The notes under the pieces: model-generated
What the model was told of the DNA's origin: nothing
Databases searched by the model: none
Seen by the model: the letters and a program-made list of their open reading frames with translations, nothing else
Part shown: in pieces, positions 3,119 to 59,100 of the stretch
Layout: every line of letters starts with the position of its first letter
Position numbering within the stretch: the stretch's first letter is position 1
Source: Sphaerolaimus hirsutus
Lineage: Eukaryota > Nematoda > Chromadorea > Monhysterida > Sphaerolaimidae
NCBI GenBank assembly: GCA_964036195.1
Contig: OZ038454.1
Coordinates: forward strand, 8,680,001 to 8,744,000
Direction: 5' to 3'
Length of the DNA stretch: 64,000 nucleotides
Program-made: the position numbers and the translations under genes

Positions 3119-3126
3119 ATGAAAAC

Positions 3127-3941
3127 TAGGGTTCAAACGGGATTGACTTTTCGGGATCGGGATTGGCTTTTTGAGATTTCGGGATCGGGATTGGGATCAG
3201 GATTGACCTTTCAGGATCGGGAGCGGGATTGGTTTTCAAGATTTCGGGATCGGGATCGGAATTGACCTTTCGGGATCGGGATTGGCGTTTTTTCAGGATC
3301 GGGATTTAGGCCTAAAAATTGGTTTTCAGGGGTTTATTTCCTGATATTTCACAAAAGGACCAAAACACCAAAAACAATGGATGCCAGAAACGTTGGATTA
3401 AATTGGCATACAAAACAATGTTATAGATTCAATTAGGCACTGCGCAATCGGCTACCTGGAATTGTCATTCACACCAATGTCTACCATATAGTTGAGTGTG
3501 TGATAGTGAGTGATCACTCACTATCACACACTCAACTATATATGCATGTGTATTAACCTTAAACTACTATAATGGGCACTATATCGAGTCCATTTGTAGT
3601 GGTGTCCATGCTCACGGAAGAGAGATATAGAGGGAGGTGCGGAAATGCGCACTTGCGCGCAAAATTTTTGCAAACTGCATACAAAATGGTCCTTTAAAAG
3701 TGCCATTTCAGGCACCTCTTGTGTCTGTGAATTTTTCCGGGATCGGGATCGGGGCATTTTTTCGGGATTGGGATTGGGATTTACAAAATCTCAAGATTGG
3801 GATTGGCTTTTTCGAATTTCAGGATCGGGATCAGGATCGGGATCAGGATCGGGATCAGGATCGGGATTGAGGTTTCGGGATCACAAAATCCCGAAATTTC
3901 GCGGGATTCGGGATTGGGATCGGGATCCCGTTTGAACACTA
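3127..3941. mobile_element. C-family hAT-like element C1, (GGGATC)n subterminal arrays
   Basis: Ends are TAGGGTTCAAACGGGATTG and TCCCGTTTGAACACTA, flanked by an exact 8-bp duplication ATGAAAAC (3119-3126 and 3942-3949). Just inside both ends are irregular GGGATCGGGATT arrays. The interior holds a perfect 54-bp palindrome (3487-3540) and an H-like core with TGCGCACTTGCGCGCAAAA. Eight-base duplications and (C/T)AGGG ends are characteristic of hAT transposons. No transposase is present. Confidence 0.85.
3487..3540. repeat. Perfect 54-bp palindrome
   Basis: Two 27-base arms meet at TGATCA with no spacer and no mismatch; each arm includes GTTGAGTGTGTGATAGTGAG. It lies inside element C1. Confidence 0.9.
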
Positions 3942-11327: not shown

Positions 11328-11547
11328 ATGCATTACGGCCGGATTTACTTTACGGCCGGGTTTACTTTACGGCCGAGATCTCGCCAGTTGGGATAACCCC
11401 CCCTAGGGTTGAAAAAAAACGTTTTTTTTTACTCGATGTTTTTATAATCTAACAAGCGTTTTTATAAAACAACGTTTTTTAAATAAAATACGTTTTTTTA
11501 AAGCGCCCAGATATGGCCTTGTGTCAACATACATACCTAGGTAAATA

Positions 11548-12292
11548 CACTCCTGTTTACCTTGATCCGCACCTTTGTGATTTTTTATAAAAAGTTTTGT
11601 CACGCCCCCACCTAACTTTACAGCGAATTTCATTCCATACAAAAAGTAGCCCAAAGAGTTGTCTAAATGCCCATTGGAGCACCCCCGATTGTAACGCCAT
11701 GTGGGCTGTGTAAATGGCCCACACATTTTTTAAAACCAGAATGCAGTGATCAGCTTTTCTCAAACGCGTTTCGTAAAATGATTATATTCTGTCAGTCAAG
11801 GCCGGAAAACTGCTTGAAAGACATAAAAGAGTCCTAGCTTAGTGCCAAATGCCATTTCAATGGCTTATTTAGAGATAGAAATAAGATTAGACATTTTCAA
11901 TTTGTTCTGATTTGTACAGCAGATCACGATCAGCTGTGTTTGTGATCGCTTTATCTGCTCATGCTACATCTGTTCACACAGAGTATGCTTATGTCTGAAA
12001 GAGAAATCCTTAGGCATTTTTAAAAAACTGACTCCGCTTGAATACAGCCCCCCACACAAGAGAATTGAAGGAGCGAAATTTAAAAACAATTGCTCAATTC
12101 TTCTTACTACTAATTTTCTTCCCTGGACAAAATGTACAATGTGTTTTAAATTTCGCTTCTTCAATTCTCTTGGGTGGGGGGCTGTATTCAAGCGGAGTCA
12201 GTTTTAAAAAAATGCCTGTAAAGTTAGGTGGGGGGCGTGACAAAACTTTTTATAAAAAATCATAAAGGTGCGGATCGAGGTAAACAGGAGTG
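11548..12292. mobile_element. P element with long TIRs and TA target site, nested in B7
   Basis: About 75-bp inverted ends beginning CACTCCTGTTTACC, including GTCACGCCCCCACCTAACTT and its complement, flanked by TA on both sides, as for Tc1/mariner-like MITEs. Inside is a further inverted pair at 12010-12220 (CTGACTCCGCTTGAATACAG with its complement). No transposase. Confidence 0.6.
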
Positions 12293-12384
12293 TATATCCG
12301 ACATATGGCAACACTATATCAGACATATGGTAAATATATGGCAACACTATTTGATGTTGTATATGCCCATATAATGGCTGTGGA

Positions 12385-13147
12385 TAGGGTGGCAGACGGT
12401 ACGGCCTTGCGGTAAACCGTACGGTACGGTAAATTTCCCATTGTGCGGTAAACGGTACGGTACGGTAAATCTTCAATTTTGCAATAAACGGTACGGTAAG
12501 GTAAATCCCAAAAGTGCGGTACGCGGTACGGTACGGTAAATTTTCGATTGTCAGAAATGTATTAACTACCGAATCCAGACAATTTTTACTTCATTAATTG
12601 ACACCAAATTCAATTACACAATTTGATAATGGACTTTAGAACACAATAACAGTATGATGACAGAAAATTACATTACCTGCAATGCAGGGGCTCAATATAT
12701 AGGATTTTCCCAAGGTGTAGAAGGATAAAAATGGAGAAAAATTGCTAAAAGTGGGTGAAAAATTGCTAAAAGTAGGTGAAGAATAGTTGAAAATAGGTAT
12801 ATCAGTAACTATAACACAAAAATAGCTGAAAATAGGCAATAAGGCATGAATGCAATTTCAGTGACACCCGAACCCCCGTGTGAAATTGTGAAATTTGCGC
12901 GCTTGCTCGCAAAAAATTGCAGAATACAACATCAATTGTCATGAATAAATTCAACGATATAAGGTCAATCCGAGTAAAATTTACCGCAATTTTTGCGGTA
13001 AATGAGTGCGGTACGCGGTACGGTATGATAAATTTCGAAAAATGCAGTACGCGGTACGGTATGGTAAATTTCTAAAAGTGCGGTAAACGATACGGTACGG
13101 TAAATTTTCCAAAAATGCAGTACGGTACGGTAAATTCTGCCACCCTA
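12385..13147. mobile_element. F-family hAT-like element F1, GGTACGGTAAA arrays
   Basis: Ends TAGGGTGGCAGACGGTACGG and AAATTCTGCCACCCTA, exact 8-bp duplication GCTGTGGA (12377-12384, 13148-13155). Both subterminal regions are arrays of GCGGTAAACGGTACGGTAAA. The interior contains a K-like segment (12690-12840). Confidence 0.85.
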
Positions 13148-13559
13148 GCTGTGGAGCCATGGGATAGCACTATATAATGGTGATTTGTATCAAAAATATC
13201 CATTTTTTGTCCACATGTTTGTATATCGCCTTATAGTCAAATGTTCGTGACTTCCAAGTGAAGTTTGGCACAGAATAGTGATCAAACAAGGTTATAAAAG
13301 GAGGTTGTTACTTTGGGAGTGATTTTACACACTGTGGAGGTACATGGAAGCTTATATGGCTTATTAACCCATGATAGCACATAGAAATGGATGCTTTGAT
13401 ACTAAAAATGCCACAAAACCAATGAAAACAACCACCAATGTTAATTTGTGTGTGAAATTGCGCGCTTGCGTGCAAAAAAATGCAAAATACCTAGTGCATA
13501 CGTACAACAATTTTAAGTACAAAACGTTTTTAAAAAAACATCGGCCAACCCTAACCCCC

Positions 13560-17017: not shown

Positions 17018-18069
17018 TAGGGTGTCAAATTTCCATTTCTGTTTTCCTTTTCCGCAGGAAATTTTTTGACCTTTCCGTTTTCCAGCAGCTGAAAATTTTT
17101 TACCTTTCCGTTTCCGTTTTTTGGCCCATTTTTCCATTTTCCAGCTGAAAATTTTTTTCACCTTTCCATTTCCATTTTTCCAGGCCATTTTTTCCGTTTT
17201 ATGGATCAATTTTCAGTTTTCTGGCATCTTTCCATTATTTTTCCAATCTGTATTTATATTTTTCCAATATGGTCTTTTTAACTACCAGGTTCTTGTGTCG
17301 TTCATAATTGTTATCTGTATCCAAATCTGTAAAAAAATTAATGAAAAAAACAATGGCCAGTTGAAGCAGTGCTTCTGCTGCGGGTGCAAGGCCTCTAGTG
17401 CTGTGTGGATGCTGGCTGAGAGGTTGGATATGAATTTGAACCCATACATTTTTTTTAGTAAGGCCAATTTTTCCATGTGTATTTGAGTCAAGCTGCATTT
17501 TGCAATCAAAGATGTCCCTAAAAACGAAAAAATGTTTCAGGAAATGAACATATGTTGCATGTACACTACTGAATTTTCATTTTTGAATATTTTTCTCTTT
17601 ATGTGAAACTGTGTGCCAAGCACATAAGTAATTTTGGACACATACTTTGCAGTCCGCTGAGTATACTTTTTACTGTTCAGTTACATCAAAGTTCACTTTT
17701 GCTAAATTCTTATTGTTGCTGTAGTGTACTTTTGCTACCTTTTGATGATTTTTTGTTGGTTCAGTTAAGCTTGAAGTACAAGTGAAGTTACTGGCATGAT
17801 CCATAGTTGCAGAATGTACAGCTACCACAACCAAAGCCAAACAGGCAAACCTGCATGCAGTTTTTTCTTCTGCAAATTTTTCCATTTCCATGCAAATTTC
17901 ACTTTTTTTCCGTTTCCATGAAAATTTTGCTTTTCATTTTCCATTTTCCGGCCAATAAATTTTTTTACCTTTCCGTTTTCCGCTGAGTGAAATTTTTTTA
18001 CCTTTCCATTTTCTGTAAGGTGAAAAATTTTACCTTTCCGTTTTCCGTAAAATTTTTTTCGACACCCTA
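17018..18069. mobile_element. A-family hAT-like element A1
   Basis: Ends TAGGGTGTCAAATTTCC and TTCGACACCCTA with exact duplication GTCAGACC (17010-17017, 18070-18077). Subterminal arrays of CCTTTCCGTTTTCC with AAATTTTT. The interior shares long stretches with A2 in opposite orientation, including a frame on the minus strand (about 17690-17830) encoding VVAVHSATMDHASNFTC. It may be a relic of a longer ancestor; no transposase motif recognised. Confidence 0.85.
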
Positions 18070-18899: not shown

Positions 18900-19290
18900 G
18901 TAGTTTGGCAAAGGGGACGGCTTCGCAGTGAACAGCACGGGCGGTAAATTTACCAGTTTGCGGTAAACGGGGCGGTAAAGGTTCAATTTTGCGGTAAACG
19001 GTACGGTGAATTTCCCTAATTTGCAGTATGATGTAGTTAGTGGTGGAATGGCGCCATTTGAGGGCGCCAACATGCGCCGTCATTGGCGCTTGGCGGCTTT
19101 TTCCCGTGGCGCCTGGCGGTCTGATTTTGAATGGCGCCATGGCGCCTTTGGTAGTTGGCGCCCTTCTTCCGTGGCGCCTGGCGCCCAGATTTGGAATAGC
19201 GCTATGGCGCCCTTTTTTCTGGCGGCCATCACTAGATGCAGTACTATAGAAATGCTGCGTAATGCTGATTACGAAAAATTCTGCCACCCT
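18900..19290. repeat. F-family-like copy hosting G2
   Basis: GCGGTAAACGG arrays at 18945-19010 and a right end ATTCTGCCACCCTA at about 19276-19290. The left end is degenerate. G2 sits in the middle. Confidence 0.5.
19038..19234. mobile_element. G-family element G2 (GGCGCC-rich)
   Basis: Ends TAGTGGTGGAATGGCGCC and GGCGGCCATCACTA, duplication GATGTAGT / GATGCAGT (7 of 8). The interior is a run of GGCGCCATGGCGCC palindromes. Confidence 0.7.
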
Positions 19291-20463: not shown

Positions 20464-20696
20464 TAGTGATGTAAAGGCGACGGGTCATCGGTGCTGGGGG
20501 CACCGAAAGGCACCATCGGTGCCGGTGCGGTACCTTTGCGATTTTCAGCGGTGCCACCCTGGCTCTGGTGCCATTTTTTCAGAATGGTGCGCTAAATTGT
20601 TTGCCGGCGCCCCACGCTGTCAGGTACCCTTTCCATGTGTTGGGTGAGGTGCCGGTGCGGTGCGGTGCAATTTTTCCGGTGTCTTTAACATCACTA
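20464..20696. mobile_element. G-family-like element G1 (GGTGCC-rich)
   Basis: Ends TAGTGATGTAAAGGC and CTTTAACATCACTA, exact 8-bp duplication GTGGCCAC (20456-20463, 20697-20704). The interior is CGGTGCCGGTGCGGT repeats, a variant of the GGCGCC arrays of G2 and G3. Confidence 0.8.
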
Positions 20697-20881: not shown

Positions 20882-21317
20882 TAGGGTTCAAACGGGATCT
20901 CGATCCCGAGAATCTCCCAAGTCCGGGATCCCGATCACGGAAAAAATAGTGGAAATTATAAAAAGTGAAAAAATGACATTTTTGCGTGAAAAAATGACAT
21001 TTTTGCGTGCAAAAATGTGAACGCAAACCCCCAGCGTCCATTTTATGTCACTTTTCTGGCATCCAACAGTGTTTTGAGACCTTAATGAACAACTGTGAAT
21101 GCCAGAACAGTGACGAAAATCTCTATCCCTAGACCCCAATCCCGATCCCGAAAAAAATGCCAATCCTGATCCCGTGACCCCAATTCCGGCCAATCCCGAT
21201 CCCGAAATCTCAAAATACCAATGCCGATCCCGATCCCAAAACCCCAATCCCGATCCCGAAATCTCAAAAAGTGAATCCCGATCCCGATCCCGAAAAGTCA
21301 ATCCCGTTTGAACCCTA
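20882..21317. mobile_element. C-family hAT-like element C2
   Basis: Ends TAGGGTTCAAACGGGATC and TCCCGTTTGAACCCTA with duplication GAATAAAC (20874-20881, 21318-21325); GATCCC arrays near both ends. Confidence 0.85.
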
Positions 21318-23712: not shown

Positions 23713-24418
23713 TAGGGTTGGCCGATGTTTTTTTTTAAACGTTTTTTATTTAAAAAAAACGTTTTTTTTTAAAAAAAAACATGACGTCCGAAATGTTTTT
23801 TTTTTAAAAAAAACATCGACCGAAATTTTTAGTACTAAGCACTAGGTATTTTGCAAAATTTTTGCGCGCAAGCGCGCAATTTCACACACAAATTGACATT
23901 GGTGGTTGTTTTCATTGGTTTTGTGGCATTTTTAGTATCAAAGTATCCAATTCTATGTGCTACCATGGGTTAATAAGCCGTCATGTGTTGCTGTGGTTAT
24001 ATAATATTGAGGTAATGTGCTTCCATGTACCTCCACAGTGTGTAACATCACTCCCAAAGTAACAACCTCCTTTTTTAACCTTGTTTCATCACTATTCCGT
24101 GCGAAACTTTACCTGAAGTCACAAACATTCGACTATAAGGCGATATACGAACGATATGTCGACGAAAAGTGGATATTTTTGACACAAATCACCACTTATA
24201 ATGCTATCCCATGGCTCAACAGCCATTATGTGGTCATATATAACATCACAGAGTATTGCAACTGTCTGATATACCTATATATGTTGACACAAGGTCATAT
24301 CTGGGAGCTTTTAAAAAAAAACGTTTTTTATTAAAAAAAAACGTTTTTTTTTATAAAAAAACGTTTTTTTTTTTAAAAAAACATCGAGTTAAAAAAAAAC
24401 GTTTTTTTTCCAACCCTA
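23713..24418. mobile_element. B-family hAT-like element B1
   Basis: Ends TAGGGTTGGCCGATG and TTCCAACCCTA with exact duplication AGCATGGT (23705-23712, 24419-24426). Subterminal arrays alternate ACGTTTTTTTT and AAAAAAAACGT. The core includes TTAGTACTAAGCACTAGGTA and TTGCGCGCAAGCGCGCAA. Confidence 0.9.
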
Positions 24419-28022: not shown

Positions 28023-28296
28023 TAGGGTTGGCCGATGTTTTTTAAACGTTTTATTTAAAAAAACCATCTGCCAAAATTTTTAGTACTAAGCACTATACGA
28101 ACATGTCGACAAAAAATGGACGTTTTGACACAAATCACCACTTATAATGCTATCCCATGGCTCCACAGCCATTATATGGTCATACATAAAATCACTGAGT
28201 ATTGTCACTTGTCTGATATGTTGACCCAGAGTTATATCTGGGAGCTTTTTAAAAAACCCATGGAGTTGAAAAAAAAACGTTTTTTTTCCAACCCTA
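28023..28296. mobile_element. B-family hAT-like element B3, internally deleted
   Basis: Ends TAGGGTTGGCCGATG and TTCCAACCCTA; duplication GGTGGTGG (28015-28022, 28297-28304). At 274 bp it lacks the middle of the B core found in B1, B2, B4 and B5. Confidence 0.85.
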
Positions 28297-34125: not shown

Positions 34126-34299
34126 AGCGACATTACACCTTACAATGAAATCTACCATATCCCATCTGAATAAACGAACATACATAACAAATTTCATCAT
34201 ATTTATCAAAGCAATTTGATAAATATGATGAAATTTTTTTATGTTTGTTCTTTTATTCAGGTGGGATATGGTAGATTTCTTTGTGAGGTGTAATGTCGC
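34126..34299. repeat. Hairpin of about 80-bp arms inside E
   Basis: GCGACATTACACC, CTACCATATCCCATCTGAAT and TTTCATCATATTTATCAAA are matched by their complements in the right half, with almost no spacer. Small MITE-like foldback. Confidence 0.7.
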
Positions 34300-35680: not shown

Positions 35681-38600
35681 CTGAAAACAGTATTTTAAAC
35701 ATACTTAGGTGTTTAACAGAACGTGCATCAAGCGGCACACTATTCACCCAATGTGTACTGGGATGGGAGTAACGATCGAAATCAAAAATTCTAAAATATT
35801 CTGAATGCCCTATTTTACCGATGAAAAACACCCAATAATCGAACATATACAGAACCCCCCCCACAAAGTTTGTGGCACAAACTCCATTAAACACCCCCGA
35901 TCGACCCCAAACATAACTGACTTGATAAAAAGCGCAATGGATGGTTGCTGCGGTGAAGTGACCTCCATTTTTGATTCGTCCGCAGATGAGGAGCATATAC
36001 CGCTGTCTTTGCTATCATCTGTTTCTTCCAGTTGACAAGTAGGAGTTCTGCGATTTTTGGTAGGATTTTTGCAGAGTTGTTAAAAGTACGAACTTTTTCA
36101 TAGTATATTTACGTAAACGTAAACTATTTTTTTTTACTTACATATAGGGTTCAAACGGGATTCACTTTTCGCGGTAGGGATTGACTTTTTGATATTTAGG
36201 GACCGGGATCGGGGGCTTCGGGATCGTGACCACAAAATCCCGAAATTTTATGGGATTCGGGATCAGGATCCAGGATCAGGATCCCTATCAGGAATCACAC
36301 TATGTCGAGTGTTTTTTACAGTGGCGCCATCGGCGTTTTTTTTGCGCTGCGCCAGGCACAAAACGCCAGTGCTAACGCCAAATCAAAAAGCCCCGTGGCG
36401 CTTGGCGCTGGGGTTCGGAAAAGAGTCATGGCGCATTTTTTTCCATAACTAGTACAGTTAATAAAATGGAGCACGTTCAAACGACAAAATCGAACACGTT
36501 CATCGTGTTAAATGCGTTAATAATCTAACCGAAACATGCTGGGTATCGAAGCGACGCCAGTTGTGGGCGAAAAATCCTGGGATAAATTTCCATTATCCGC
36601 AGGTTGGTATGCGAAGCGCAGCGCATCCACCGTCGACTGCAGCAGCAGATAATTTTGATATCCTATCAGTGAAGTATTGGAGGTGGGCGCCTGATTGAAA
36701 AAGAATCGATTTTCAGTGAATAAATATAATGTACACACTGAAAATATATATTCATGAAAATAAAAGGAAATTCACCTTCTCAACATACTGGAAAAGTCCT
36801 TTCAAGATGCAAAGATTTGTCTCGCAGCGATCTAACAATTCAGCCGCCCCGCGCATGACCACACCCACATTTTTCTCCACATTGGAGCATGAAAATGTCA
36901 CGGTCAGGTGTTTTTTGAGTATCTTGAATATCTTCGATACAGCCAATCTGCGAAAAGAAACTTTTTAAATATAGATATTCATGGTGGCTACACTCCGCTT
37001 GGTGAAATAAAGCTAGCAACAAAGCAACAAATCACTTTGACAACTCGATTTGCCGGGAACACTATCATTACTATCTTAATGAACGAGTGAAGGCTCCCGT
37101 GGGGTAAAAATGACTGAAAACTTACTTTTCAGTTGAAAACTATTTCATAAAGCATTGTAATTAGTTGTCTAGTGGCATTGGATGGGATGCGATGGAAACT
37201 GACTTTGGCTGATCACATTCCTCCAAAATTACGTGCACCGAATCGACAACTTTGACTAGGTTACGGTAGGTGAGAGCGTGCGCGCCCAATTGTTCGGCTA
37301 GTTCAGAATCGTGGAATGCTTTAGTGCTGTAGTTGCTTCTCTCCACGAATGTCACTGCCAGCTGAGCAGGGTGTAAACTAGGGATGGCAAGCGCTTTTTT
37401 TAAGCGCTTTTTTTTAAAAAAACGCCGCTTTTTAAAAAAAAAAAGCGCAAGGGTCCCAGCGCTTTTTTTAAAAAAAAAGCGCTGGCCAAAATTTTAGTAC
37501 TCATGCACTAGGTATTTTGCAAAAATTTTTTGCGCGCAAGCGCATAATTTCACATGCAAATTGCCATTGGTGGTTGTTTTCATTGCTTTTGTAGCATTTT
37601 AGTGGCATTGCTTCTATGTATCATGTAATAATAAGTTGAGGAGATATGTCAGTGTAGTTAAAAATATCCAGCCAATGTGCTTCCACCTTTCTACAGTGTG
37701 AAACATCACTGTCATGTATTAGCCATCTTTTATAGCCAAATTTAAGCACTATACCATGCCTAACTTCACTTGCAGTCAAGAAACATTCAAAAATGTCGAT
37801 ATACATAATTAGTCGACATAAAATTGGATTTTTTTGGCAGAAATCAGCACTTATAATGCCATCAGATGATTACATAGCCATTCTATGGTTATATATCATC
37901 ACAAGTACTGCCACTCGTCTGATATACCTGTATATATTGACTCAGGACCATATTTGGGAGCTTTTTAGGTAACATCTTGACAATTTTTGAAAAAAAAGCG
38001 AAAAAAGCGCGTTTTTTTTAAAAAAAGCGCTTTTTTTAAAAAAAGCGGGGCCGTTAAAAAAAGCGCTTTTTTTCCATCCCTAGTGTAAACATATATGTAT
38101 CAATGATAATAGCAAAAGAAATTTCGAAAGCAAAAAAAATCAATTAAAAATAAAGTTTAAAATTTTTAAAGAAAAGTAAAATGGGAAATAAAATATTGAA
38201 GGAAAAGTAAAGTTAGAAGTGGGAAATAATTCAAATGAGACGTCAAAAATATTGATTCTTCCATTTTTAACTTTCCACATGATGTTGATTTTAAAAGTTC
38301 ACTGCTATGCTGGTTTTACACTTCTCAACTTTCGTAATTAACGCAGTGTCCTTTCGGAAAGCGCACAAAATCCGCGGTTCACATTTACCTGATAAACAGA
38401 CATGCCATCGCTGCCTTTGGCTCCTTTATACAGTACACGAAAGGCCTGGCTGTCGCAATCTCCCCGACTCAAACATTTACTCGCAGCCAAATTGTCGCGC
38501 ACGTTCAACGCCAATTGAAGCACCGAGCAGAGCGTGTCCGCCAAGCGCACCTGCGTCAAGATCGAGGCCGGTTACTGGCGTTTGAATGGTGAGGTATTTT

Positions 38601-40375: not shown

Positions 40376-43300
40376 CTGGGGATACAAGGGTGGATGGAAG
40401 TGTGAGCCGGATTCAATTGAGGCATCCAATTCTTAAAGTCCACATTTGTTTACTGGACTTTGCTGCAGAAGTTTTGCAAATATTCAAATGTCATACAATG
40501 GACACGCAATTTTTCACATAAAAATACCTATACGTTCAGAACAGGGGCTTACAATTTGACACTTTATTCTCAACATTTGTAACTTAATGGTACGCATGAG
40601 CGAGCCATATTGGACACGCAGCACGGGACATGAATTGAAAATGTAACTTAAAATGAGATTTACCCTATTGCCTCAATTGGACTGTATGGCGCATTTAAGT
40701 TGGCCGACTCATTAGTACGCGCTTGAAATTGTGATAATAGGGCAAATTTGGGCAATCAGTTTCCATTTGGAAGTGGAATGCTGAATTGGTTAATTTAAGT
40801 AAATCTTGCAACGTTTTCAATCAACCACAGTGGGTCTGTAAGAAAAAACTCAGTGACATATCTTAGCGAAATTTCGCATTATTTGATAACCCATGGAAAT
40901 CCTTGCAAGTATTTTAGCCTTCATTTTCCACCAGCCCTGCCACTTATCCACCCGCAGAAACGTCCCCAGTAGTGACCCTCAAAAATCACCACTAGTGATG
41001 TGAAAACGCCATGGCGCTTTTGGCGCTAGGCGCCAAAACTCTGGCGCTTTTTTTACCACTAATCACCACACAAAAACACTTCAACGCAACCCCACTCAAC
41101 CCACAATAATCTGGTAGGGCGGCTGCACACCACTGGTGTCGGCCGCGTCGCCCGTCTGCGCCAGGGGCTCCCCCTTGGGCTGGGTGCCGCTGCCGCCCGC
41201 CGCGCTCACCGGCACCGTGTCGTGGAAGCGCTCCTCCACCACGCGGAACCTGGGTTGCATATAGGGTGCCAAAAAAATTTTTTTTACGGAAAACGGAAAG
41301 GGTAAAAATTTTCCTCCGGTAAACTGAAAACGGAAAGTTGACACCCTAGTTGCATGCTGATTGGCTGGAGATCGTTTTTTGGGTGATGAGGAAATCAGGC
41401 AGTTTCTTTTTTTGGGGTGGGGCGGATTGGATGGATGCTTCCACATACTTTCACAGCGTGAAACATCACTCTCGATGTTTTAACCTCCTCTTATGACCTT
41501 ATTTAAGCACTGTCAGACAAGTCATGAACATTTGATAATAGGCAGTATACATAACAAGCCGACATAAAAATGCATTTTTTGGAGAAAAGCACCACTTATA
41601 ATGCGATCCCATGCTCCACAGCATATGTATGGCTATATGTAACACCACCAAGTATTTACAACAACTTGTCTGATACACCCCTACATGTTTACTTGGGAGC
41701 TTTTAAAAAACCGTTTAGAAAAAAACAACCGTTTCAAAAAGGGGGTAATTAAGAAACCTTTTGTCTATCACTTATCATAGGAATACAGATCTCACCAGGG
41801 GTTTGGTAGGGGGGGGGTTACCCCCCCCCCCCAAATCCGCCAGCTATCTATCTATCCCGGAGGCCCGGTCAGCTATCCATCTATCCCGGAGGCAATTTTT
41901 TCGGCTACTATCCCCTAAACCCCCCCCCCTCAAATCGTCCAGCTAAATATCTATCTATCTGGAGTGATTTTTGAAAAAATTTCGCTCAAAATCGCTAATT
42001 TTCGTACCATTTTATAGTTTTTCACCTCCAAAATCGCTAGTTCATGTTCATTATCGCTTATTTTGGCTATATATGTGCTTATATACTTATTTTTAGCTTT
42101 TTTTCACCTACTTTTAGCGATTTTTCCCCTTTTCTTTCTTCTATACTTCGGAAAACCCAATAAATTGAACCCCCGCGAACCCCCCCCCCGCCAGGAAATT
42201 TTTCAGCTATCTATCCCTCCGGAGGAGCGATTTGCCATCTATATGAACCCCCGCGGGGGTCCAAATCTACAAAACCCCTGGATCTCACCCTAATAGGCAA
42301 GTGCCTGACCTTGTAAGTTATTTGTCAAGTAAATGTAAACTGTAAAATGTCAAAGATGAGGAAATACTTCTCGACTGATCACATTTCACAGGATCTGAAA
42401 CCGACACCCGAACCATCAGTTCTCGAAGTGTCCAACGACACCGACCTGACAACTTTGCCCACATCCAGAAACAGCTTCACAGGGGCCTGTTCCTCTGCCT
42501 GCTCATCACTATCATCCGGGTCATTCGGATAGCGCCAGTACCATGCGCCGTCTTCGAAGGCGGCCGGCGAGGGCAGCTTGTCGCTGGGCACCACGATCTC
42601 GTCGAACACGCCCACCGAGAGCGTCACGCCCGCCGCCGAAGAGCTCCTGATCGTGCCCACTAGAAGTTCGTCCACAAACGGACGGAAGACCACCGTGCGG
42701 AAGGCCACTGCGGCGAGGGGTGCACGCAGTTGTTAAAAGTACTGAACTTTTTCAAGTTTCAAGTAAACGTCAAGTTGTTGTTTTTATTCACCCATGGCAC
42801 CGAGTACAGAAAAAGTAGTGAGAATTTTGAGTAAACGTGAGTAATGAGCAAACGTGAGTAAAATACTTTTCCCCTGGAAAACGTAAAGGTTTTCACACAT
42901 ATCATTAATTATCATACCTTAGCCCGTATTTTCAACTTTAAATTAGCTAGTTCTTGTTCTCTTTTGCCTATTTCAGCCTTTTGCCAAAATACATGTGCTT
43001 CTATACACATTTTCTGTCTATTTTACCATATTTTTCACTTTTTCTCCATGTTTGTTCTTGATGTTGCCTTGAAAAAGCTTATAAAAAAATCTGAAACACA
43101 TTTTTTACGTGCACAGCGGATAAACATCCACAAAAGGCCTACGTCATAGATACCGCCAACCGCTACACGACCCTCCATCACGGGCAACTTTCAACTCGCC
43201 TAAAAGAAACCCAGTGACACACCCTTAGTGTGCGAGGCACCATCATTAGGCAGCAGAAAGCTCTTGTGAACCTCCTCAAAGTCGTACACGGCGATGCACA

Positions 43301-47173: not shown

Positions 47174-50100
47174 CTGCATGAATGGGGGCGGGGTCAAATT
47201 GCGGGCAAGCACGGATAAGTCAAATGTTAGGCCGCATTTTGTTTGGGTCGTGTTAGGGGTAGGGTTCAAACGGGATTGACTTTTCGGGATCGGGATCGGG
47301 ATTCACTTTTTGAGATTTCGGGATCGGGATCGGGATCGGGATTGGGGTTTCGGGATCGGGATCGGGATCGGGATTGGTTTTTTGAGATTTCGGGATCGGG
47401 ATAGGGATCGGGATTGGCCGGGATTGGGGTCACGGGATCGGGATCGGGATTGGGATAGGCATTTTTCCGGGATCGGGATTGGGTTCTAGGGATAGAGATT
47501 TTGGCCATTTTTCTGGCATTCACAGTTGTTCATAAAGGTCTCAAAACACTGTTGGATGCCAGAAAAGTGGCATAAAATTGACGCTGGGGGTTTGCATCCA
47601 CTTTTTTGCATGCAAAAACGTCATTATTTCACTTTTTATAATTTCCACTAATTTTTCCGGGATCGGGATTGGGTTCTAGGGATAGAGATTTTGGCCATTT
47701 TTCTGGCATTCACAGTTGTTCATAAAGGTCTCAAAACACTGTTGGATGCCAGAAAAGTGGCATAAAATTGACGCTGGGGGTTTGCATCCACTTCTTTGCA
47801 TGCAAAAACGTCATTATTTCACTTTTTATAATTTCCACTAATTTTTCCGGGATCGGGATCCCGGACTTGGGAGTTTCTCGGGATCGGGATCGGGATTTGA
47901 AAACTTTCGGGATCGGGATCGGGATTGGTATTTTTGAGATTTCGGGATCGGGATCGGGATCGGGATTGGGGTTTCGGGATCGGGATCGGGACTGGTAAAT
48001 CCCGGAATTTCACGGGATCCGGGATCGGGATCGGGATCCCGTTTGAACCCTAGTTAGGGGTGGATCTTGAGTAGAATACTGGAGCTTTTTAAGTTACAAA
48101 TGGATACTTATGCCCCATTAGGGTGGTTTAAAAAACTATGACGTCATGAGAGCATATCATGATATCATATCAGCATATGAGCATATCAACAGCATATCAA
48201 AGTTATCGTTTCACTCGTTGTTAACCCTCATTCACTTTAACCGGAAAGTGTCCACGAACATGAACATCACTCTCATGACGTCATAGTTTTTGTTATGAAA
48301 TACCGAAATGGGACATAAGTATCCTTTTGTTAGTAAACAGTTCCAATATTCTGCTCAAGTGATTTTCTGAAGTCAAAGGGTCAGTTTTATCATAGATTTT
48401 TTCAAAAATCCAAGGCTTAATTTGTCCTGACCACAAGCATGATAACAGCCAATCTTTGACTAACTATTCATATAGGATCATGCAATAGCATACGAAAGAG
48501 CACAGAAGATTCTGTTTTCTGACGACTAGAAAAAAAACAAAATCTTCTATTTTCGATCAACCAGGTTCAGGTTCATTTCGCAAGCAAGGGCAAAAAGCCA
48601 GATCACCTCGTCATCGCTGGCGGCAGAGCGCTCTACGGCCGGCGGCGCCTGCCCCCCAGCGCCCATTGTCGCCGCGGTCCCTGAAGGATGTAAATAAAAT
48701 GGGAACAGTCGCAAGTCTGAAATGTGTAAGATGTTTTTTTCCCATTTAGCGTTCAAATATAGCGTGGGAGTTTTTCAGAACATATAATTTGATAAAATGT
48801 CATCTCAGCACAACAGTGAAAAATTTAATACCGCAAAAAACGCAGAGAAATTTAGATAAATATAAATGAGATATTTTTTTATTTTCTTCTCATATAATCA
48901 AAAAAATAAATGCCGTGAAAAACCTGGAGAAAATATATTTAAAAAAATATTTTTTATTTCCTTATCCTAATATTTAAAAAATATAAATATCCAAAAAAAT
49001 ATTGGAAGCTTGTCTCAGATTTGTCAAGTGCCTGGTAAAACGAAAAATCACGGTAAAATAAACTCTTGTGTATTTTACCGGAATTTTACATTTTACATCC
49101 CAAATTATACAGGGGGCGCGAGTACCAAACGCGGCAGATTTGTGAGGTAGATCGGTGTCCACGCCGCGCCTCGTACAAATGCAGTTTCCTCTACCCTTCC
49201 CCCTTCCCACAAAACGTCGGCTATCGACAATAGAAAAAACCACGGCAAAACCAGCCGCATGCGACGACAAAACAACATCGAAATAACACCAAAATAACCT
49301 GGCACGTAGGCGGACTTGACCTTGCCGTGACGTTCCGACTTGCTGCGACGAAAGAAGCCGCCCACCGACGACGCTGAGTTGCCACGAAAACATGCACTGT
49401 CACATGGATGACACGTGGAACGATTCACATGTACACAGACACTACTGAGCACATGCACTCGAACTCGATACGCGCAAGCTGGCAAAGCACACTGGCCCGA
49501 AGATTTGCTTCTATCTTACGCTAATTACACTCATCACGCGACACAAGAAGGGAACAAAAATTTTTTAAAGTCACAAAATCACACAACGCAGAATCACTAC
49601 ACACAGAAGTTCAATGCGCGTGCACACACTAGTTTACTGCCAGATTTTGGTAAACTCATAGATCGGCTTTGAACGCATTTGAGTTTACCTCAATTTATTC
49701 GTAATCCGAATCAACTGCAGTTTACAGACACCTCATTCTGGTAAACTCAAATGCATTCAAAAGCATTAAAATTTACTAAAATCTGACAGTAAACTAGTGC
49801 GCGTAACGCCACTCTCAACAGAATGCACACGAACGAAAGAGAAACGGCGTCACACTTTAAATATCAAAACTGCACAACAACGCAAACTGAGGACAAACTA
49901 ACGCTGCGGCGGCTGCTGTTCCTGCTTTTGCACCTGACGCGTCACCGGCAGCGCGCCGCGCGACGCCTCGAACGTTGTCTCGGTCGTGTAGGCTACGAAA
50001 CGACGTTGATCGATAAAACGAATTTACGTTTTACGTTTTACGGTGCGTATTTATTTACGTTTACATCGAGCGATTTGAGTAACCGTAGATAAGTGTGTTA

Positions 50101-53100
50101 GGCTTTCACGACAGATTTGTTGGGTGCAAACGATCAAAGCAAACGAAGCCACTTTGAATACATCATGCAAAATGTTAGATGTCGGTTTCAGGATATGATC
50201 AATACACACAGACCCAGCGGCGCCACAAAGGCGGCTCACACACTAGTTGACACACGTGTGTCAACAGGTCTCTGTCAACTCAGATTCGGTTTCACATGTC
50301 GCAGAGCCATCTTCCAATGCACTTGCTGTAATATTTATTTTTCAACATGCCGTGTGTGCATTTGGAGATTGCTGTAACAGGTGACACTGAAGTCTCAGTT
50401 GACACAGACCAGTTGACACACACGTCTCAACTAGTGTGTGGCAGGGGTCTTGTAGATTTGGACCCCCGCGGGGGTTCAGATAGATAGTAAATCGCTCCTC
50501 CGGAGGGATAGAACGCTGAAAAAAATGGGGGGGTTCAATATATAGGCTATTTTGAGGTTTAGAAGCTAAAAAGGGGGAAAAATCGCTAAAAATAGGTGAA
50601 ACATAGCTAAAAATAGGTCAAGAGTACATAAATAGCCAAAAATAGCTGAAAATGTGCGATAAGACATACACATTGATGATTTCGACGGTGAAAATATATA
50701 AATAAGTATGAAAAGTAGCGATTTTGAGTGAAAATTAGGGTAAATTTCTCAAAAATCGCTCCAGAATAGATAGATAGCTAGCGATTTGGGGGGGGGGGTT
50801 CAGGGGATAGTAGCCAAAAAATTTGCCTCGGGATAGATAGATAGCTGAGCGGCCTCCGCGGTAGATAGATAGCTGGAGCGTTTGGGGGGGGGGGTAACAC
50901 CCCCCTACCAGACCCCTGGTGTGTGAGCCTCCAAAATGTCTGTTTCGATATTGTACAGCAACTATCCAACCCGGTTACCCGACTACTCATCACTGCGGCG
51001 TTGGAACAACACTTTTCGATATGGATGATAGTAAATATTCGCAGCCGCACGATATTCGATAAGTAAAGTTCCAAACCTATTTACATCAGCCACTAAACAC
51101 ACAGTGCTGCAGAATTACTAAGAATCATTCCGGAGCCTATTTTGAAGGTCACTCGAATATTATTCACCATTTTCTCCGAGAAAAAAAAACTATCAGTGGG
51201 GCGTTTTCGAAGAATTTGTTTCTTCTGTTTTTTATAAATATGCGCAAACGATTCGTTATAACTCAGCGTCACAGCGTACACCACACAGAAAAAGCGCGAC
51301 GAGATCCCTTCCCAGCCACCCAATTACCCCCTCACCAAAAAACGCACCAATAGTGTGCTGCTGCGGCGGCTGCTGCTGCTGCTGCTGTTTAAACGGCACC
51401 CCAGCCACGGGCAAATGGTGCTGGGGGCTGCCCAGCGCGCCCGCAGAAGTAGCCATAGTTGTCGTGGCAGGGGGGCGGGTGGTCGCCTGCGACACGTCCG
51501 TGGTGGCCGCCGAGCCGGGGGCTGGGCCCGTGCCCGCGCCGGTGCCGTCGGCGAACGCGTTGTGGTTGCGACGCGCTTGCATCAGCGACACCGTGTCTAG
51601 TTGAGGGGAAAGGGGGCATTGGGTTTATGCCGGGGGGTTTTTTGCCGACCGCGACGGTTTAGTTAGGCGACACACACATTGGATGTCAAGTGGTTTCTAT
51701 GTCAACTCGATTTTATTTCAATTTAGGTAGCAGGACAATTTACAACTGCACATGCGGCAATGCCGACAAGGAATCAATATTGTCAGGTGCATTTAAACAC
51801 GGTTTCGCAACCGATGCACTTGAAAATTGCCGTACGTCCTGAATTGAACTAAAATCAAGTTGACATCGAAACCAGTTGACATTCAGTGTCTGTGGCGCCA
51901 TATTTCGAAGTGATTTCAAAATGAGATATGGAATATCGCGTGGAATGTTATTTGCGATTGTTAAGGCGGCTACAGGTAAGTGCCACTATGGTGGAGAGGA
52001 ATATCTAGGACAAAATTCACCTGGTTAGTAGATGTAAACTATTTTGTAGTGCTACTATCTGTCATTATCAATGTCATTATTTTCATATTCTCAATTTTAA
52101 GTACCTATTTCTTTGAATCTAATCATCAACGTGACAGCAATTCAACTTTCGATAATCTAACTAAATAGTTTGAAATTTTCAGTTTGCATTTTACAATTCA
52201 GCCATTTAAATAAATGGAAATGATTTTGTTTCGAGAATTTTCCACAGATAAATTAAAACTAAATTTAAATAAATAAATTTTACATAGCAATTGTCAACTC
52301 GAAAAGTAAACCGAAACCGAAACCGAAACCAACCCGCAGTAGCACTGTCCACTGGACTGAGCGGCCGGTGTTCCTGCGGCGGCGGCTGCGGCGGCGACGG
52401 GTCGTGCGGGGGCTCGGCCGACTTTGCGCGCACCTGCTGCATGTACTTCTCGATGTCCTCGTCCGTCTCGTGCGCGAACGGATTCGGCGTGTACAGTTGC
52501 TTGTACACCTGCGAGGCGATGTTTGTCAAGGGAAAATAAACTGGACGTACGTGGACAAAAAATGTATGCTTAACGTATGAGAACCTTAGTTTGAAGACCT
52601 CTTCGATACCGATTGAATCCGTTCCAGTTATCCAACAAAATATATTTAAACGTGGTATATTGGCGGCCCACACACTAATTGACACATGTGTTCGGCCGCA
52701 CAGCGATCTCCAAATGCACTTGCCGTAATATTTATTTTTCAACCGAAATCTGAGTTGACACAGACCAGTTGACACACATGTGTCAACTAGTGTGTGGACC
52801 GTCAATTCCATCTCCCGGTACCACACTCTCCGGAAAAGCACGCATAAAATGCCAAAAGCAGTGATATCAAATCCAACTAGACCACCCCACCCACCTGCGC
52901 ATTATGCCTATAATCCCTGTCGATGATACCCTTGCTGGCGGTGCCGATCATGACCACCCTGTTCCTGTCCAGCGAGCCGGTCAGCTCCGACTCCTTGAGT
53001 CTGGCCATGTCCTCGTAGGTGACCCCTTCGAGCACGTGCGACCGCGGCCCCGCTGAGGTGACGCCGATGCGGCGCGCTTCCTGGGGAGTGGAGTGAGAGG

Positions 53101-56100
53101 TGTGTGCAGCGCAGATGGATGGCGTCGTTGGAGGGAATTGAAGGGAGCCGCGCCATGACGTCATTTTTCTTTGGCGTCATTTTTAAACGGCGCCAGAGAA
53201 ATCCATCATCCCCAGAAATCATTATTGTATCAATCATTGTGGTATAATTGATTGGCCATGCACACACTATATGACAGCCGAAATTTTCAAAGCTGATAAA
53301 GCGTTCCTAAACACACTTGAATTAGGAGTTCGTCACTACTGATGATTATCAGTTTTGGTATTTCGATTGTCAACCAGTGTGCGTAGGCACACACTTTACC
53401 ACATCGGTCACTATAGATATCAACAAACGGCCAAAAAGTACAATCAATAAAAAATCAATCACACAGCCCAAAATCGAACCTTAATCGCCCTCTGTTTCTC
53501 CCTAAACTCCTTGGGGTTGATCCTGGCATCGGTAGCCGCCGGCACCGGTGCAAACTGGTGCACAGAGGTGATTTTAACCGGCGTCGAGTGCGAAGGTGAA
53601 GACGCCTCCTCCCCCGAAACCCACTGCGAGTTGATTTGATGCTATTTGAGGATTGGTTGGGTTATTTGGCAGCGTGCCAGGCACTGCGGTTGGGCTTCTA
53701 TGCCGTATAAGGGCGAATGAACATGGAAAGACAACAATGTGATTGAGCACACTTTTGTGAAGTCTGAATGTTACAGAGGAAAGAAAGTGTCAAGCGTATA
53801 CTCAAAAAAAAATCTGAATAAATGCCAGTTTCAAATTAAGTTGCAACAATGACCAGTGTTACCGATCGTGAGATAGTATGCGCAATCACAAAAACCCGAA
53901 AACCCATTGCCGACCCGCACACAAGTAGACAACTCAAACATTCAAAGCTGATAAATCTGTTATAAAGACATTTGAGTTTACCAATATGGGGATTCCGCCC
54001 GTTACTATCAACGGGGATCAAAAATGCTACATTATGGTCAACTCAAATGTGGTTTAAAACAGATTTATTAGTTTGGGAAATTTCGATTGTCAACTAGTGT
54101 GCGTGGAGCCATTAACTTAACCTAACCCAGGATTACCTCTTTCGAAAAACACCTGTAAAATTGCGACAATACAAATGCACAAATCCACACCGGCAGCACG
54201 TTGAAACGTTAAAACGATTCGCTTTTCAGCATGCAATCATGCGAGAAAAATTCAAGCCCTCGCACAGATTTCACTTGAAACGTTCGCGTGCCCCGCATTT
54301 TTTTTGGGTCAAGCAGTAAAACGGCAACAAAAAAAATTTTGCACACAAAGATAGCGTGAAAATGGAGAAACATGGCAGCCCGTCTAAATATTTACATGAT
54401 TATAACTTACATTCACCTCGTCCATGGTGTGCGATTTGCGGATCCACTGCAACGCGACGAATAAAAACGGTGAATAGCGTTCCAAAAATGGGTGTTTTTC
54501 AGAAAATATAATAAGATATAATCTCAGAAAATCTCTCAAAAGATAAAACATTTTTTAATCTCTCTGAAAAACGCAGAAATAAATATAAAAATATGAAGAA
54601 TGTAAAGAAGATTTTTTTTCATCTCATAAAATAAACATAATTTTATCTCCCCGCAAAAACCAGGATAAAAAAACAATAAATCCAAATTGTTTTAATATTT
54701 TCTTATATTAAAATAAATATAAAAAAATCTCCCCAGATTTTTGGAACGCCAACGGTGAAAAACTATGTATCGTCCTTTTCTCGCGGACAAAGTAATTTGA
54801 AATTTTTTCCCGTCTCTATTTAAAAATCTCGCACGCGGGACAGTTCAGGTGCCGGTTCCGTAAGTGGAAAAGTTAAGAGTTAAAACTTAAGAGTTGAGTA
54901 AAATAATAAATGATAAGTTAAGAGTAAAGTTAAAAGTTAAGAGTTAAGTAAAATCATTTGTCGTTTTACTCAACTCTTAACTCTTAACTTTACTCATAAC
55001 TTGCCATTTGTCATTTTACTCAACTCTTAAGTTTTAACAATTAACTTTTCCACTTGCGGAACTGGCCCCAGGACGCATGCGGAAAATTTAGTAAAGCACC
55101 GCATGCTTGTGCAAAATGCCGCACTCCCGACCGGACAAACGGCTGGACTGCAAAATACGACTGTTTGGGGCACCTATTTTGACCTATTTTGTATTTGACC
55201 CAAGTTGGTACAATAAAATAGTGATGGTAAATTTTGAAGTAAACAGAAAAATCCTTGTTTTATACTTGTTTTTACTTTTCTACTTCAGCTCTAAATAGGC
55301 ATATTTGTGGCATTCTGTGTCATTTGAATCAAAATCACATTTCGATTTCAATACATGTGAAATGATTCCAGCAAAATGTTTATAAATCAGTACCACCTAC
55401 AAAAGTGGACTGATCAATTTCGTGATAGAAGCAAATCTGAGTTATTGACTTCTTGTGAAATTAAAATGGATTCATCGGCTTTTTCTGAGATTAAAATGCA
55501 CTTAGACTTTTTGGTAGAATCGTTCAGCATATCCCCCAGTCAAATGACTACCGTATTTCCCCGAAATACTCCCCTTGAATAAACCCCCCTAATACCCTCA
55601 GGTGTTTCCCAGCTAGGGTTGGCCGAATTTTTTTTTTTACGTTTTTTTTTTAAACGTTTTTTTTATAAAAAAACATGACGCCCGAAATGTTTTTTTTTTA
55701 AAAAAACATCGGCCGAAATTTTTAGTACTAAGCACTAGGTATTTTGCAAAATTTTTGCGCGCAAGCGCGCAATTTCACACACAAATTGACATTGGTGGTT
55801 GTTTTCATTGGTTTTGTTGCATTTTTAGTATCAAAACATCCATTTCTATGTGCTACCATGGGTGAATAAGCCGACATATGTTGCTGTAATATATAATATT
55901 GAGGTAATGTGCTTCCATGTACCTCCACAGTGTGTAACTTCACTCCCAATATAACAACCTCCTTTTATAACCTTGTTTGATCACCATTCCGTGCCAAACT
56001 TTACCTGAAGTCACGAACATTCAGCTATAAGGCGATATACGAACGATATGTTGATGAAAAATGGATATTTTTGACACAAATCACCACTTATAATGCTATC

Positions 56101-59100
56101 CCATGGCTCCACAGCCATTATATGGTCATATTTAACATCACAGAGTATTGCCAGTGTCTGATATACCTATATATGTTGACACTAGGTTATATCTGGGAGC
56201 TTTTAAAAAAAAACGTTTTTTTTTTAAAAAAACATCGAGTTAAAAAAAAACGTTTTTTTTCCAACCCTATTCCCAGCTGAAGCAAAAATACCCCCCCCCC
56301 CCCTTGAAATACCCTCCGTATTGAATAAGGTACACGATGTACGTAATGAACATGATGTATTAATTGATGTCAATTTACATCGCAGCTACACATAGACTAC
56401 TAAATATGTGTAGCTATCTACGACGATATGTCTTAATATATCATGTTAGGTCACGTTTATTATCAGTTTTGGGTATGTAAAGCACCACGCTTTACTATGA
56501 TTCTTACCGAAAATTTCTGGCGAAATGATAAAGCTCGAATAAAGCCCCCCTCGAAATACCCCCACTCCCCTCAAAATTTCCACTCTGAAAAAATAAACCC
56601 CTGCGGGTATTCCGAAGAAATACGGTATGTACTTCTGGCTGAAAACATAGTGAATTTGTCAACTTATTCAACTTATTCGCTGCAAAAATGTTGCAGGAGG
56701 TTGATAGAACTTTCAATTTCGTCGGCACGTAAATAAGCAGTTTGTCCGGTAGGGGAAAACACTTCAGGTAATGCGCTTCTAATCAAACGTCATTTTATCT
56801 CTGAAAATTACAACCCACGAAGGCGACTCTACAGCACAAGCTGACACCAGTGCCCGCTGGCGCGTGCATGCATTCGAAGTAGGTTTTTTGATCAAACAGC
56901 GTCATGATAAAATTCTAGCGAACAGGCAAACCATGGAATTGGCAAAACGTCATGCGCACTGCAAACGGATGTGATTCTAAAATCTAGATAACATGCGGTA
57001 AGTCACTGATAGGGTGTTGAGGGCCACCGCAAACACGTCCACTTAATGACCCCACACACACACTAGTTGACATTGACGATCAAATGTCAGCTGGTTCCCA
57101 TCCCAATTTAAAGATTGCTGACAAGTAACAGTACGCATCACTGTATACAAATATACTTCATGCCGGCCTTAAGCATATCACATAACGTAATGTTTTTTAA
57201 CGCAACACAACTCAACACGATATCTTCATTTGAGACACGATTCAAATAATTTTTCATTTGAACATCAGTCAGCAAGCTTTGAATTGGGATGGGAACCAGT
57301 TGACATTTGGCGTCGATGTCAACTAGCGTGCGTGGCGCCATCGCACCGCATAGCATTCATTCAGCTTCCAGGACACAAATGCTAGGCTATTCAAGCAGCT
57401 CACTGACCTTGGTGATCTTTTTCGGATTCTGAGTGCCAGTCTCCAAGAACTCGACCTTCTGATAAGCGTTGGGCGAGTTGAGCCAACGCACGCGTTCTTG
57501 TTCGCGCCGCAACATGAGAAGCCGGCTGGCGGCCACCTGATTAAAGTGCGGCACTTGTTAAAGTTGAATGGGTCATGCATTGTCGGTGCAAAATTGGGGC
57601 GTGTCTTTTGAAAAAACCTTTTCAAAGTCCACTTTAGTGGCAGTAGCGAAATTGAAGTTGGAGCTTGACTAAGGTGCCCCCCCCCCCTCAACAGACAGAC
57701 AATGCACACTGCACTTGGCGGATCACATTTTCCATTACTTATGAACCCTCAGAATGGGAAATTATTGTTAATACGCAAGCACCCCTTCACACGATTGACG
57801 CCGGCAAATTTTGAAAACCACAAAAAGTGGACCACCGTCCCACCGTCGTTGTTAAAGCGTATCTACGTTTACTCAGAAAGTACGTTAACTAGAGTACTGA
57901 GTAAATACGTTCACGTATACTTTTAAAGTAGTATGCGTACTCGCTTTTACGTATTCTTTTGAAAGTACGCGAGTACAGAAAACGTATTTCAGATTGCTTT
58001 GTTATAGACTTTTCCAAAGGCATAGATGAAAAAGGGAGAAAAACGAAAAATAGAATAATAAATAATAAATAGCTGAAAATGGGCACATAACACATAAATT
58101 ATTGAATTTGAATGTTAAAATGACCAAAGAGGTACGAAATTTAGTGATTCTGACTGAAAATCAGGGCATAATTTATAAAAAAATACTCACTTTTACGGTT
58201 TTGGGGGAAAAGTATTTTACTCATGAATAAAAGTAAAGAAATTTTACATTACGTATCCTGTACTCAGGGGGCGAGTAAAAAATAAATACTTTACGTTTAC
58301 GTATACTTTGAAAATTTCGGTACTTTTAACAACTCTGCGTTAACTACCTGATCGGGATCAGAGTAGTCAATATCCCCGCTGCCGGCGGCGGCGGGCGGCG
58401 AGACCACGTCGCTGCTGGTGACCGCGTCGTGGTGGTGCGGCTGCGCGGCCGCCGTACTGGCCGCCTGCTGCAGCGCGCGCAGGAACGGCTGCTTGTAGAT
58501 GTGCCCGGTGCGCAGACCGGCGTTGTCCATTACACGCATCCAAGCCTCCCATTCGAGCTCGCCTGTAGATGGGCAGTGCGACGTGAAATTGATTATTTAT
58601 ACGGTGCGGGTGGAAGTTCATTTTTTAAGTGATTTTTAATTGATAAAAAACTCGAAAATAAGGGGACATAAAAATTTATTTTTGGCATAATCACGAATAT
58701 CAAGAGTTTCGTTTCATTCAGAGTTTCGTCAGAAGTCTTTGAGCGGAGGTGGTGATTCGAGAAGGGGGGTCATTCCCGGGGGGGGGGGTTTCAGTCAATC
58801 AGAATTTTAAAGTAAAATGTATGAATTGTTTACTTCACAAATGGGTTAAATTTAATTATGGTAACAAAAATAAGCAACAATTCAAAGGAGAATTAAATTA
58901 AATTTGATAAGAATACAAAATTAACAATTCAAGCTGAGAAATCAATCTTAGTGAACTCTCGCTGCAAGATATAATACATATATTTACGTAATCAATGCAT
59001 AGAATGGTTTTTTGTAAATGTGAAATGTTGTGTAATGTTTTCTACCAAAGTGGGGGGAGTTATTCGAGTGGGGGGAGTTATTCGAGACGGGGAACTTATT

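Follow-up and report, generated by a model that had tools for sequence, protein, structure and literature searches.

The 64,000-bp stretch of the nematode Sphaerolaimus hirsutus analysed here (assembly GCA_964036195.1, contig OZ038454.1, positions 8,680,001 to 8,744,000; referred to as the window) carries many short elements which are bounded by 8-bp duplications, and many of their families have a short motif repeated in arrays just inside the ends. This raises the question of what kind of elements these are and what the arrays may be for. We consider it likely that they are non-autonomous elements (miniature inverted-repeat transposable elements, MITEs) of many hAT lineages, that the arrays are putative binding sites of the transposase, and that array direction marks the left and the right end. 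This reading is based on 13 exact target site duplications (TSDs), a blind scan yielding 12 elements as against 0-1 in controls, empty sites, the position of 21 of 28 matches to the hAT dimerisation domain (PF05699), a ratio of 37:0 of direct over inverted arrays, and 42 of 42 unlike end pairs in family A. It is further based on Pfam and Hermes matches of transposase exons, on four exon lineages, on counts of A tips relative to controls, and on two families, B and P, which share an interior but carry different motifs. The genome that was searched comprises 348,482,957 bases in 762 contigs.

Target duplications and empty sites

All 13 of the 8-bp target duplications that had been listed in the first-pass annotation were recovered as exact pairs, and they are located at element ends that start with TAGGG or CAGGG. 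A start with (T/C)A is the consensus for hAT tips. A blind scan of the window was performed for 8-bp duplications with at most one mismatch, a TAG or CAG start, and a 12-bp inverted end with at most two mismatches. This resulted in 12 elements, whereas five Markov sequences gave 0, 1, 0, 0 and 0, and the window sequence when reversed gave 1. A laxer scan, which was run without control, gave 19 matches, and one of these (10936-13949) is probably due to chance. Short inverted tips with a (T/C)A start were thus found by scanning, with element H1 as a weak case. A comparable scan of 40 kb from five other genome places (L050-L054) gave 2 matches, with 0 in the control. With its 12 elements in 64 kb, the window looks unusually rich in intact elements.

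For two elements, an empty site could be assigned. When the sequences on either side of F1 are joined, they give a single continuous alignment to B1-B4 (87-90% identity over 99-107 bp, with 3 gap positions), and joining the two sides of C1 yields alignments to five copies of B type (77-83%, with 1-2 gap positions). In each join, one copy of the 8-bp duplication is retained. The two empty sites thus support F1 and C1 as insertions.

The elements are short, non-coding and of high copy number, as is typical for MITEs. Element lengths range from 86 to 2,289 bp (paired A ends and window elements), and the 18-mer of the C tip occurs at 2,166 + 2,189 places in the genome.

The elements of the window are the following (window positions and strand; TIR, terminal inverted repeat).

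3127..3941, plus strand: C1, TIR TAGGGTTCAAAC, exact TSD ATGAAAAC, CGGGAT arrays pointing one way at both ends, empty site
2975-4049: B-like element that carries the C1 insertion
20882..21317, minus strand: C2, direct CGGGAT arrays, exact TSD GAATAAAC
47260..48052, plus strand: C3, direct CGGGAT arrays, exact TSD GTTAGGGG
17018..18069, minus strand: A1, TIR TAGGGTGTCAAA, CGGAAA arrays (TTTCCG on the plus strand), exact TSD GTCAGACC, motif strands 0:5 and 0:6 at the two ends
30973..32420, plus strand: A2, CGGAAA arrays, exact TSD GTCTAGAC, motif strands 12:0 and 9:0
41262..41348, plus strand: A-type mini-element of 87 bp, CGGAAA motifs, flanks GTTGCATA/GTTGCATG with 1 mismatch, by eye
23713..24418, plus strand: B1, TIR TAGGGTTGG, palindromic AAACGTTT arrays, exact TSD AGCATGGT
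27122..27779, plus strand: B2, exact TSD GTCTCAAT
28023..28296, plus strand: B deletion derivative of 274 bp within a B-related remnant, low-complexity TSD GGTGGTGG on both sides
33044..33733, minus strand: B3, nested in E1, exact TSD GTATCGGG
55614..56269, plus strand: B4, exact TSD TTCCCAGC
11404..13553, minus strand: B-type element split by F1, B tips, flanked on each side by ACCCCCCC, sequence joined across F1 aligning to B1-B4
12385..13147, plus strand: F1, TIR TAGGGTGGCAGA, CGGTAC/CGGTAA arrays in the same direction, exact TSD GCTGTGGA, empty site, motif strands 8:0 and 5:0
32848..34619, plus strand: E1, TIR TAGGGTTGGG, CGGTTC arrays pointing one way at both ends, B3 nested inside, exact TSD CAGGGCAC, motif strands 15:0 and 15:0
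32619..34837, no strand assigned: H1, weak CAGGG tips, contains E1, exact TSD GTCTTGGT, no CpG array above chance
37379..38082, plus strand: P, TIR TAGGGATGG, B-like interior with palindromic AAGCGCTT arrays, exact TSD GTGTAAAC
19038..19234, no strand assigned: Y1, probably family G of the first-pass annotation, GGCGCC array, TSD GATGTAGT/GATGCAGT with 1 mismatch
20464..20696, plus strand: X1 (233 bp), TIR TAGTGATGT, CGGTGC arrays, exact TSD GTGGCCAC
41796..42280, no strand assigned: K1, TIR CAGGGGTTT, exact TSD GATCTCAC, no CpG array above chance
50442..50918, no strand assigned: K2, absent from the earlier list, TIR CAGGGGTCT, TSD GTGTGTGG/GTGTGTGA with 1 mismatch, no CpG array above chance

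The tips of H1 have 6 mismatches in 14 positions and little beyond CAGGG in common. According to the coordinates, B3 is located within E1, which in turn is located within H1, and insertions must therefore have occurred at several times.

Subterminal arrays

Arrays were evaluated by comparing the best 6-mer common to both ends with the maximum from 200 shuffles, whereby only 6-mers containing CpG were counted. The shuffle maximum is exceeded by A1, A2, C1-C3, E1, F1, P (37379-38082), X1 and B4, while B1-B3 merely equal it. Runs of A and T dominate the latter copies, and in the arrays of B and of family T (see below) A/T-rich 6-mers are as common as the CpG motif or commoner. The GGCGCC family proposed earlier fits Y1 with its 1-mismatch duplication; its array is outside the shuffle test. 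A motif repeated within 200 bp of both tips is thus present in A, C, E, F, P and X, weakly so in B, and is not found in H and K. The claim that each family has its own motif inside both ends holds for A, C, E and F and to a weak degree for B, but was too wide in its extension to every family.

Transposase exons

In the window, there is no transposase exon match better than E 0.5. In the genome, 28 matches to PF05699 were found, with repeat counts in that search representing lower bounds. Of these, 21 are located inside array-bearing elements with an 8-bp duplication having at most one mismatch, and in 17 cases the duplication is exact. They are distributed over four types of element.

A-type elements, 9 with exon: loci L009, L010, L013, L014, L028, L029, L030, L033, L036
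T elements (TAACGATG tip, TTCGAA arrays), 7 with exon: L021, L022, L024, L025, L026, L032, L034, with L024 and L025 being a duplicate on one small contig
Ct elements (C tip, ATATCGA arrays), 3 exons: L017 and L018 in one element, L019
Q elements (CAGAGTTG tip, AAACGTAA arrays), 2 with exon: L012, L015

Another match (L016) is found in a Ct-like element that does not belong to the 21 verified by duplication, and the other six (L011, L020, L023, L027, L031, L035) are without assignment to a verified element. When one exon per lineage was submitted to Pfam, the dimerisation domain was confirmed (E 4e-18 to 4e-8), and the A exon matches the Hermes transposase (E 2.5e-8). Eight A elements combine an exact duplication with an exon, and in these CGGAAA is read on the strand that does not encode the exon. 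Together with the target duplications and the tips, the position of these 21 domain matches bears out the assignment of the suite to hAT.

Sequence identity between exons is 52% for A-Ct, 38% for A-Q, 33% for A-T, 39% for Q-T and 36% over 33 residues for Ct-T (E 0.04), while Ct and Q gave no match to each other. Five of the six lineage pairs are thus 33-52% identical, and A, Ct, Q and T each have an exon lineage and an array of their own. This agrees in part with the first-pass annotation, which had proposed that the arrays are diverged binding platforms for several related transposases, and had suggested a search for hAT transposase genes whose ends share the same arrays. Such transposase exons were found for family A, for the C tip only in combination with ATATCGA arrays, and for Q and T, which were not on the earlier list; the other families of that list remained without.

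Two further assignments were rejected. The exon at L038 seemed to belong to an element with the family E tip (3267-6098), but it is located in a nested CAGAGTTG element of type Q (4439-5704, exact duplication GCACCATG), and E is thus left without a linked transposase. Likewise, the exon at L043 is not part of the surrounding GGTGCC element but sits in an apparent nested A-like element.

Array direction

The tips of the elements are inverted repeats while the arrays are not: non-palindromic motifs run in the same direction at both ends. This polarity, as well as the CpG content of the arrays described below, goes beyond what had been observed earlier. We used a motif-free score which counts 6-mers shared directly or in inverted orientation, excluding the first 14 bases of each tip. 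An element was called direct or inverted upon a 1.5-fold difference of at least 8. A scan with loose starts had given 55 matches with exact duplication as against 20 in the reversed control, so that rare tip classes were not trusted alone. The 54 scored elements consist of 44 of these 55 matches and 10 others (B1, B3, B4, three Ct, two Q, H1, K2). Left out were L025, the 139-bp element of L028, and nine matches of rare tip classes; among window elements, Y1, the A and B mini-elements and the interrupted B element are outside this set.

The result was 37 direct, 0 inverted and 17 neither. Direct arrays were found in all cases for A (11/11), C (8/8), Ct (4/4), X (3/3), Y (GGCGCC, 4/4), E (1/1), F (1/1) and the CGGGTA element of L038 (1/1), and for Q in 2/3, resulting in nine direct array families. 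One of two Q' elements and K2 were also direct. Among the 17 elements scored as neither, 11 belong to families with a motif that is its own reverse complement (B with AACGTT, P with AGCGCT, T with TTCGAA). The other 6 are one Q, one Q', H1, K1 and two CAACGATG elements.

In the genome, the A tip with CGGAAA within 30 bases occurs at 2,754 forward places and the A tip with TTTCCG at 2,957, while backward-read controls gave 0/0 and 0/1. For the reverse strand, overlapping matches raise the counts (6,220 and 9,999) artificially, and these were disregarded. Among the matches listed up to 3.81 Mb of contig C1 (a contig, not the element C1) there are 97 A ends, 84 of which form 42 adjacent inward-facing pairs within 3 kb, with 13 ends unpaired. 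All 42 pairs are unlike-ended, 16 in one orientation and 26 in the other, and none is like-like. Among the matches listed, the two end types also differ in that the first motif is mostly at the tip in one and mostly about 12 bases inward in the other.

The shared direction could be due to descent only, if the arrays were split halves of one ancestral array around an inserted interior, so that direction would be without function. Elements that consist of little more than tips and array do exist (the 139-bp element in L028, the 233-bp X1, and a 268-bp element at L038 2961-3228). However, such short elements may equally be deletion derivatives, as reported for maize Ds (PMC3260210). Descent would also require the same history in all nine directional families, and it does not account for the different motif position in the two A end types at most listed places. 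We therefore consider this explanation rather unlikely and prefer the one in which direction distinguishes the two ends.

Probable motif turnover

Between their arrays, B and P can be aligned over the whole interior with about 70-72% identity, but the motif repeated at both ends is AAACGTTT in B and AAGCGCTT in P, with the CpG kept. Several tips also occur with more than one array. Tip TAGGGTTCAAAC is found with CGGGAT or ATATCGA, tip TAGGGTTGGGAA with CGGTTC or CGGGTA (one element each), tip TAGTGATG with CGGTGC or GGCGCC, and tip CAGAGTTG with AAACGTAA or GTGTAAA arrays. Shared interiors between GGTGCC and GGCGCC elements were discarded as evidence, as the segments in common do not span the whole distance between the arrays, and other nested repeats may account for them.

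Some related observations are added here. The elements at L045 3798-4710 and L048 2333-3104 have the CAGAGTTG tip in common with L038 4439-5704, and GTGTAAA replaces CGTAAA near their tips. This is a CpG-to-TpG difference within the motif, as is GGTGCC versus GGCGCC in the TAGTGATG class. The 139-bp element of L028 (2878-3016), with exact duplication GTCACGTA, consists only of C tips and a few CGGGAC motifs.

CpG content and probable methylation

The named motifs of A, B, C, Ct, E, F, P, Q, T, X and Y, which were chosen by us, all contain CpG. Pooled over 39 elements (the 55 exact-duplication matches minus other tip classes and the duplicate L025), CpG has an observed/expected ratio of 1.63 within 200 bp of the ends, as against 0.81 in the interiors. 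This ratio is 1.00 in the window outside of elements and 0.63-0.91 in five random stretches. The TAGTGATG class shows no excess in the ends (1.01 vs 0.97), and CpG is sparse at the ends of the CAACGATG elements and of one Q' element.

In copies of A, T and B (five closest A copies, six T, four B), transitions were counted at 77/1345 CpG sites and at 30/3930 other C/G sites (7.5-fold, p 3e-24). The excess is also seen for the ends alone (p 3e-9). In a seven-copy A set, the CpG excess occurs in the interior (18/168 vs 54/1520) and not at the ends (14/517 vs 32/807). The DNA methylase family PF00145 has one genome match (E 7.9e-4), and frames at the locus of this match, L049 (G000:C15:24198104-24198295), match DNMT1 best (E 7.6e-8 and 6.6e-4). 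To judge from these sequences, the host probably keeps maintenance CpG methylation. Since copies show CpG decay and DNMT1-like exons are present, germ-line CpG methylation of the elements is likely.

These data also bear on the possibility that the arrays bind nothing and were built by neutral, microsatellite-like expansion through slippage near transposon ends. It could be brought forward that B arrays exceed shuffles only weakly and that the two ends of one Q' element (L045) have little in common. However, in four lineages exon-bearing elements have the same motif at both ends, thousands of A tips have their motif close by as against next to none in backward-read controls, and CpG-rich motifs persist where CpG decays. 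We consider neutral expansion to be highly improbable, and return to the arrays as putative binding sites.

For a non-palindromic CpG motif which has the same direction at both ends, replication would result in one daughter methylated on the motif strand throughout and another methylated on the opposite strand, so that each daughter would have one uniform hemimethylated state at both ends. A transposase with a strand preference like that reported for Ac (PMC3878927) would, by analogy, act on one daughter only. As an addition to the binding-site explanation, the transposase may thus prefer one hemimethylated form and act on one daughter at both ends at once, but we regard this as doubtful. It is favoured by the CpG in the motifs of A, C, Ct, E, F, Q, X and Y, by the CpG-rich ends of the 39 elements, and by the transition excess together with the DNMT1-like exons. 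However, the argument fails for the palindromic motifs of B, P and T, the TAGTGATG class lacks a CpG excess in its ends, CpG decay in the seven-copy A set is restricted to interiors, and methylation is deduced from sequence. With similar reservation, we put forward as a tentative idea that subterminal CpG arrays are a strand-polarised code. Transposition would be limited to one daughter just after replication, which is a route to copy gain, and a motif change at both ends would let lineages escape each other's transposases.

Proposed function of the arrays

The explanation that we prefer is that of hAT MITEs whose arrays are predicted docking sites for the transposase of their own lineage, by analogy with Ac, Herves and Hermes. 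The same-strand layout would distinguish the left from the right end, so that unlike ends pair. Lineages may diverge by motif turnover which affects both ends together and leaves the tip unchanged.

Several points weigh against this explanation. None of the 28 PF05699 matches in the genome links an exon to B, E, F, G, H, K or the GGGATC-type C, and no complete transposase was found, only remnant C-terminal exons. For the RNase-H-like family PF14372, the search gave 0 matches, but in control genomes it gave none either. H1, K1 and K2 have no array above chance, the best CpG 6-mer being equal to the maximum of 200 shuffles, and the arrays of CAACGATG elements are CpG-poor. The motif list behind the strand counts is our own choice, while the score on 54 elements is motif-free. 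Finally, copies within a family are not independent and families may share ancestry.

Other repeats and reading frames

A Q-type (CAGAGTTG) element end is present in the window at 6641-6747 (CAACTCTG at 6740). It resembles the end of the CAGTGTTG element at L038 8179-8648 (75% over 116 bp). A repeat group starting with CAGG(G/T)(G/T)CC was found at 25408-26265 and also at 5589, 9515, 21994, 26586, 54845 and 76-288. It has dense tandem repeats similar to GTTAAGAGTT or AAGTGAGAAG (19 and 12 bases), the unit of which is devoid of CpG. At L043 (822-1682, minus strand) an open reading frame (ORF) of 287 amino acids appears by eye to be similar to G protein-coupled receptors; there were 746 candidates, none at E 1e-5. 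Another ORF is, by eye, what we take to be an animal-type histone H3.

Comparison with known hAT elements

In maize Ac/Ds, AAACGG repeats in subterminal regions of 200 bp are reported to bind the transposase cooperatively. Ac/Ds elements, including Ds-l3 and Ds-l4, are flanked by 8-bp duplications, and their short derivatives are very numerous and in part retain fragments of the transposase gene (PMC3260210). The elements described here share with them the hAT affiliation, the 8-bp duplications and the short derivatives, and the Ac hexamer AAACGG is contained in the arrays of family A. They differ in that one genome has many families, each with another motif, and in arrays having one direction at both ends, the direction of the Ac repeats being outside this comparison.

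For Hermes of the house fly, it is reported that BED domains of the transposase bind short subterminal repeats, that these have antisense orientation at the left end but sense orientation at the right, and that symmetrised left ends are inactive (PMC10368747). We read this wording as referring to one absolute strand. Hermes differs by its motif AAG(T/C), which is devoid of CpG and scattered rather than arranged in dense tandem arrays, and it is a single element.

Herves from Anopheles gambiae also has a short motif at both ends, with CGATTCAT as its strongest form, which is critical and sufficient for binding, and its left and right ends behave differently (PMC3143072). These traits parallel the short motifs and the unlike ends described here. 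Herves again is one element, and tandem arrays are not described for it in the excerpted text of that report. No title or abstract was found that reports same-strand arrays across hAT families; a paper on coral MITEs concerns piggyBac-type elements (PMC2872659).

The recognition of left and right ends, and the ties between derivatives and transposases, have hitherto been studied in a small number of individual elements. In the present genome, there are nine directional array families which, as far as copies were examined, follow one rule; one of these families has thousands of copies, and exon-bearing relatives exist for four lineages. With many directional families in one genome, end asymmetry and motif turnover can be addressed by counting. 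If CpG and polarity act together, nature would offer a test here of the idea that Ac-like elements increase in number by moving from one hemimethylated daughter. The elements themselves are ordinary hAT MITEs; the new part is the occurrence of one-way arrays across many families of one genome, with CpG in most of the motifs.

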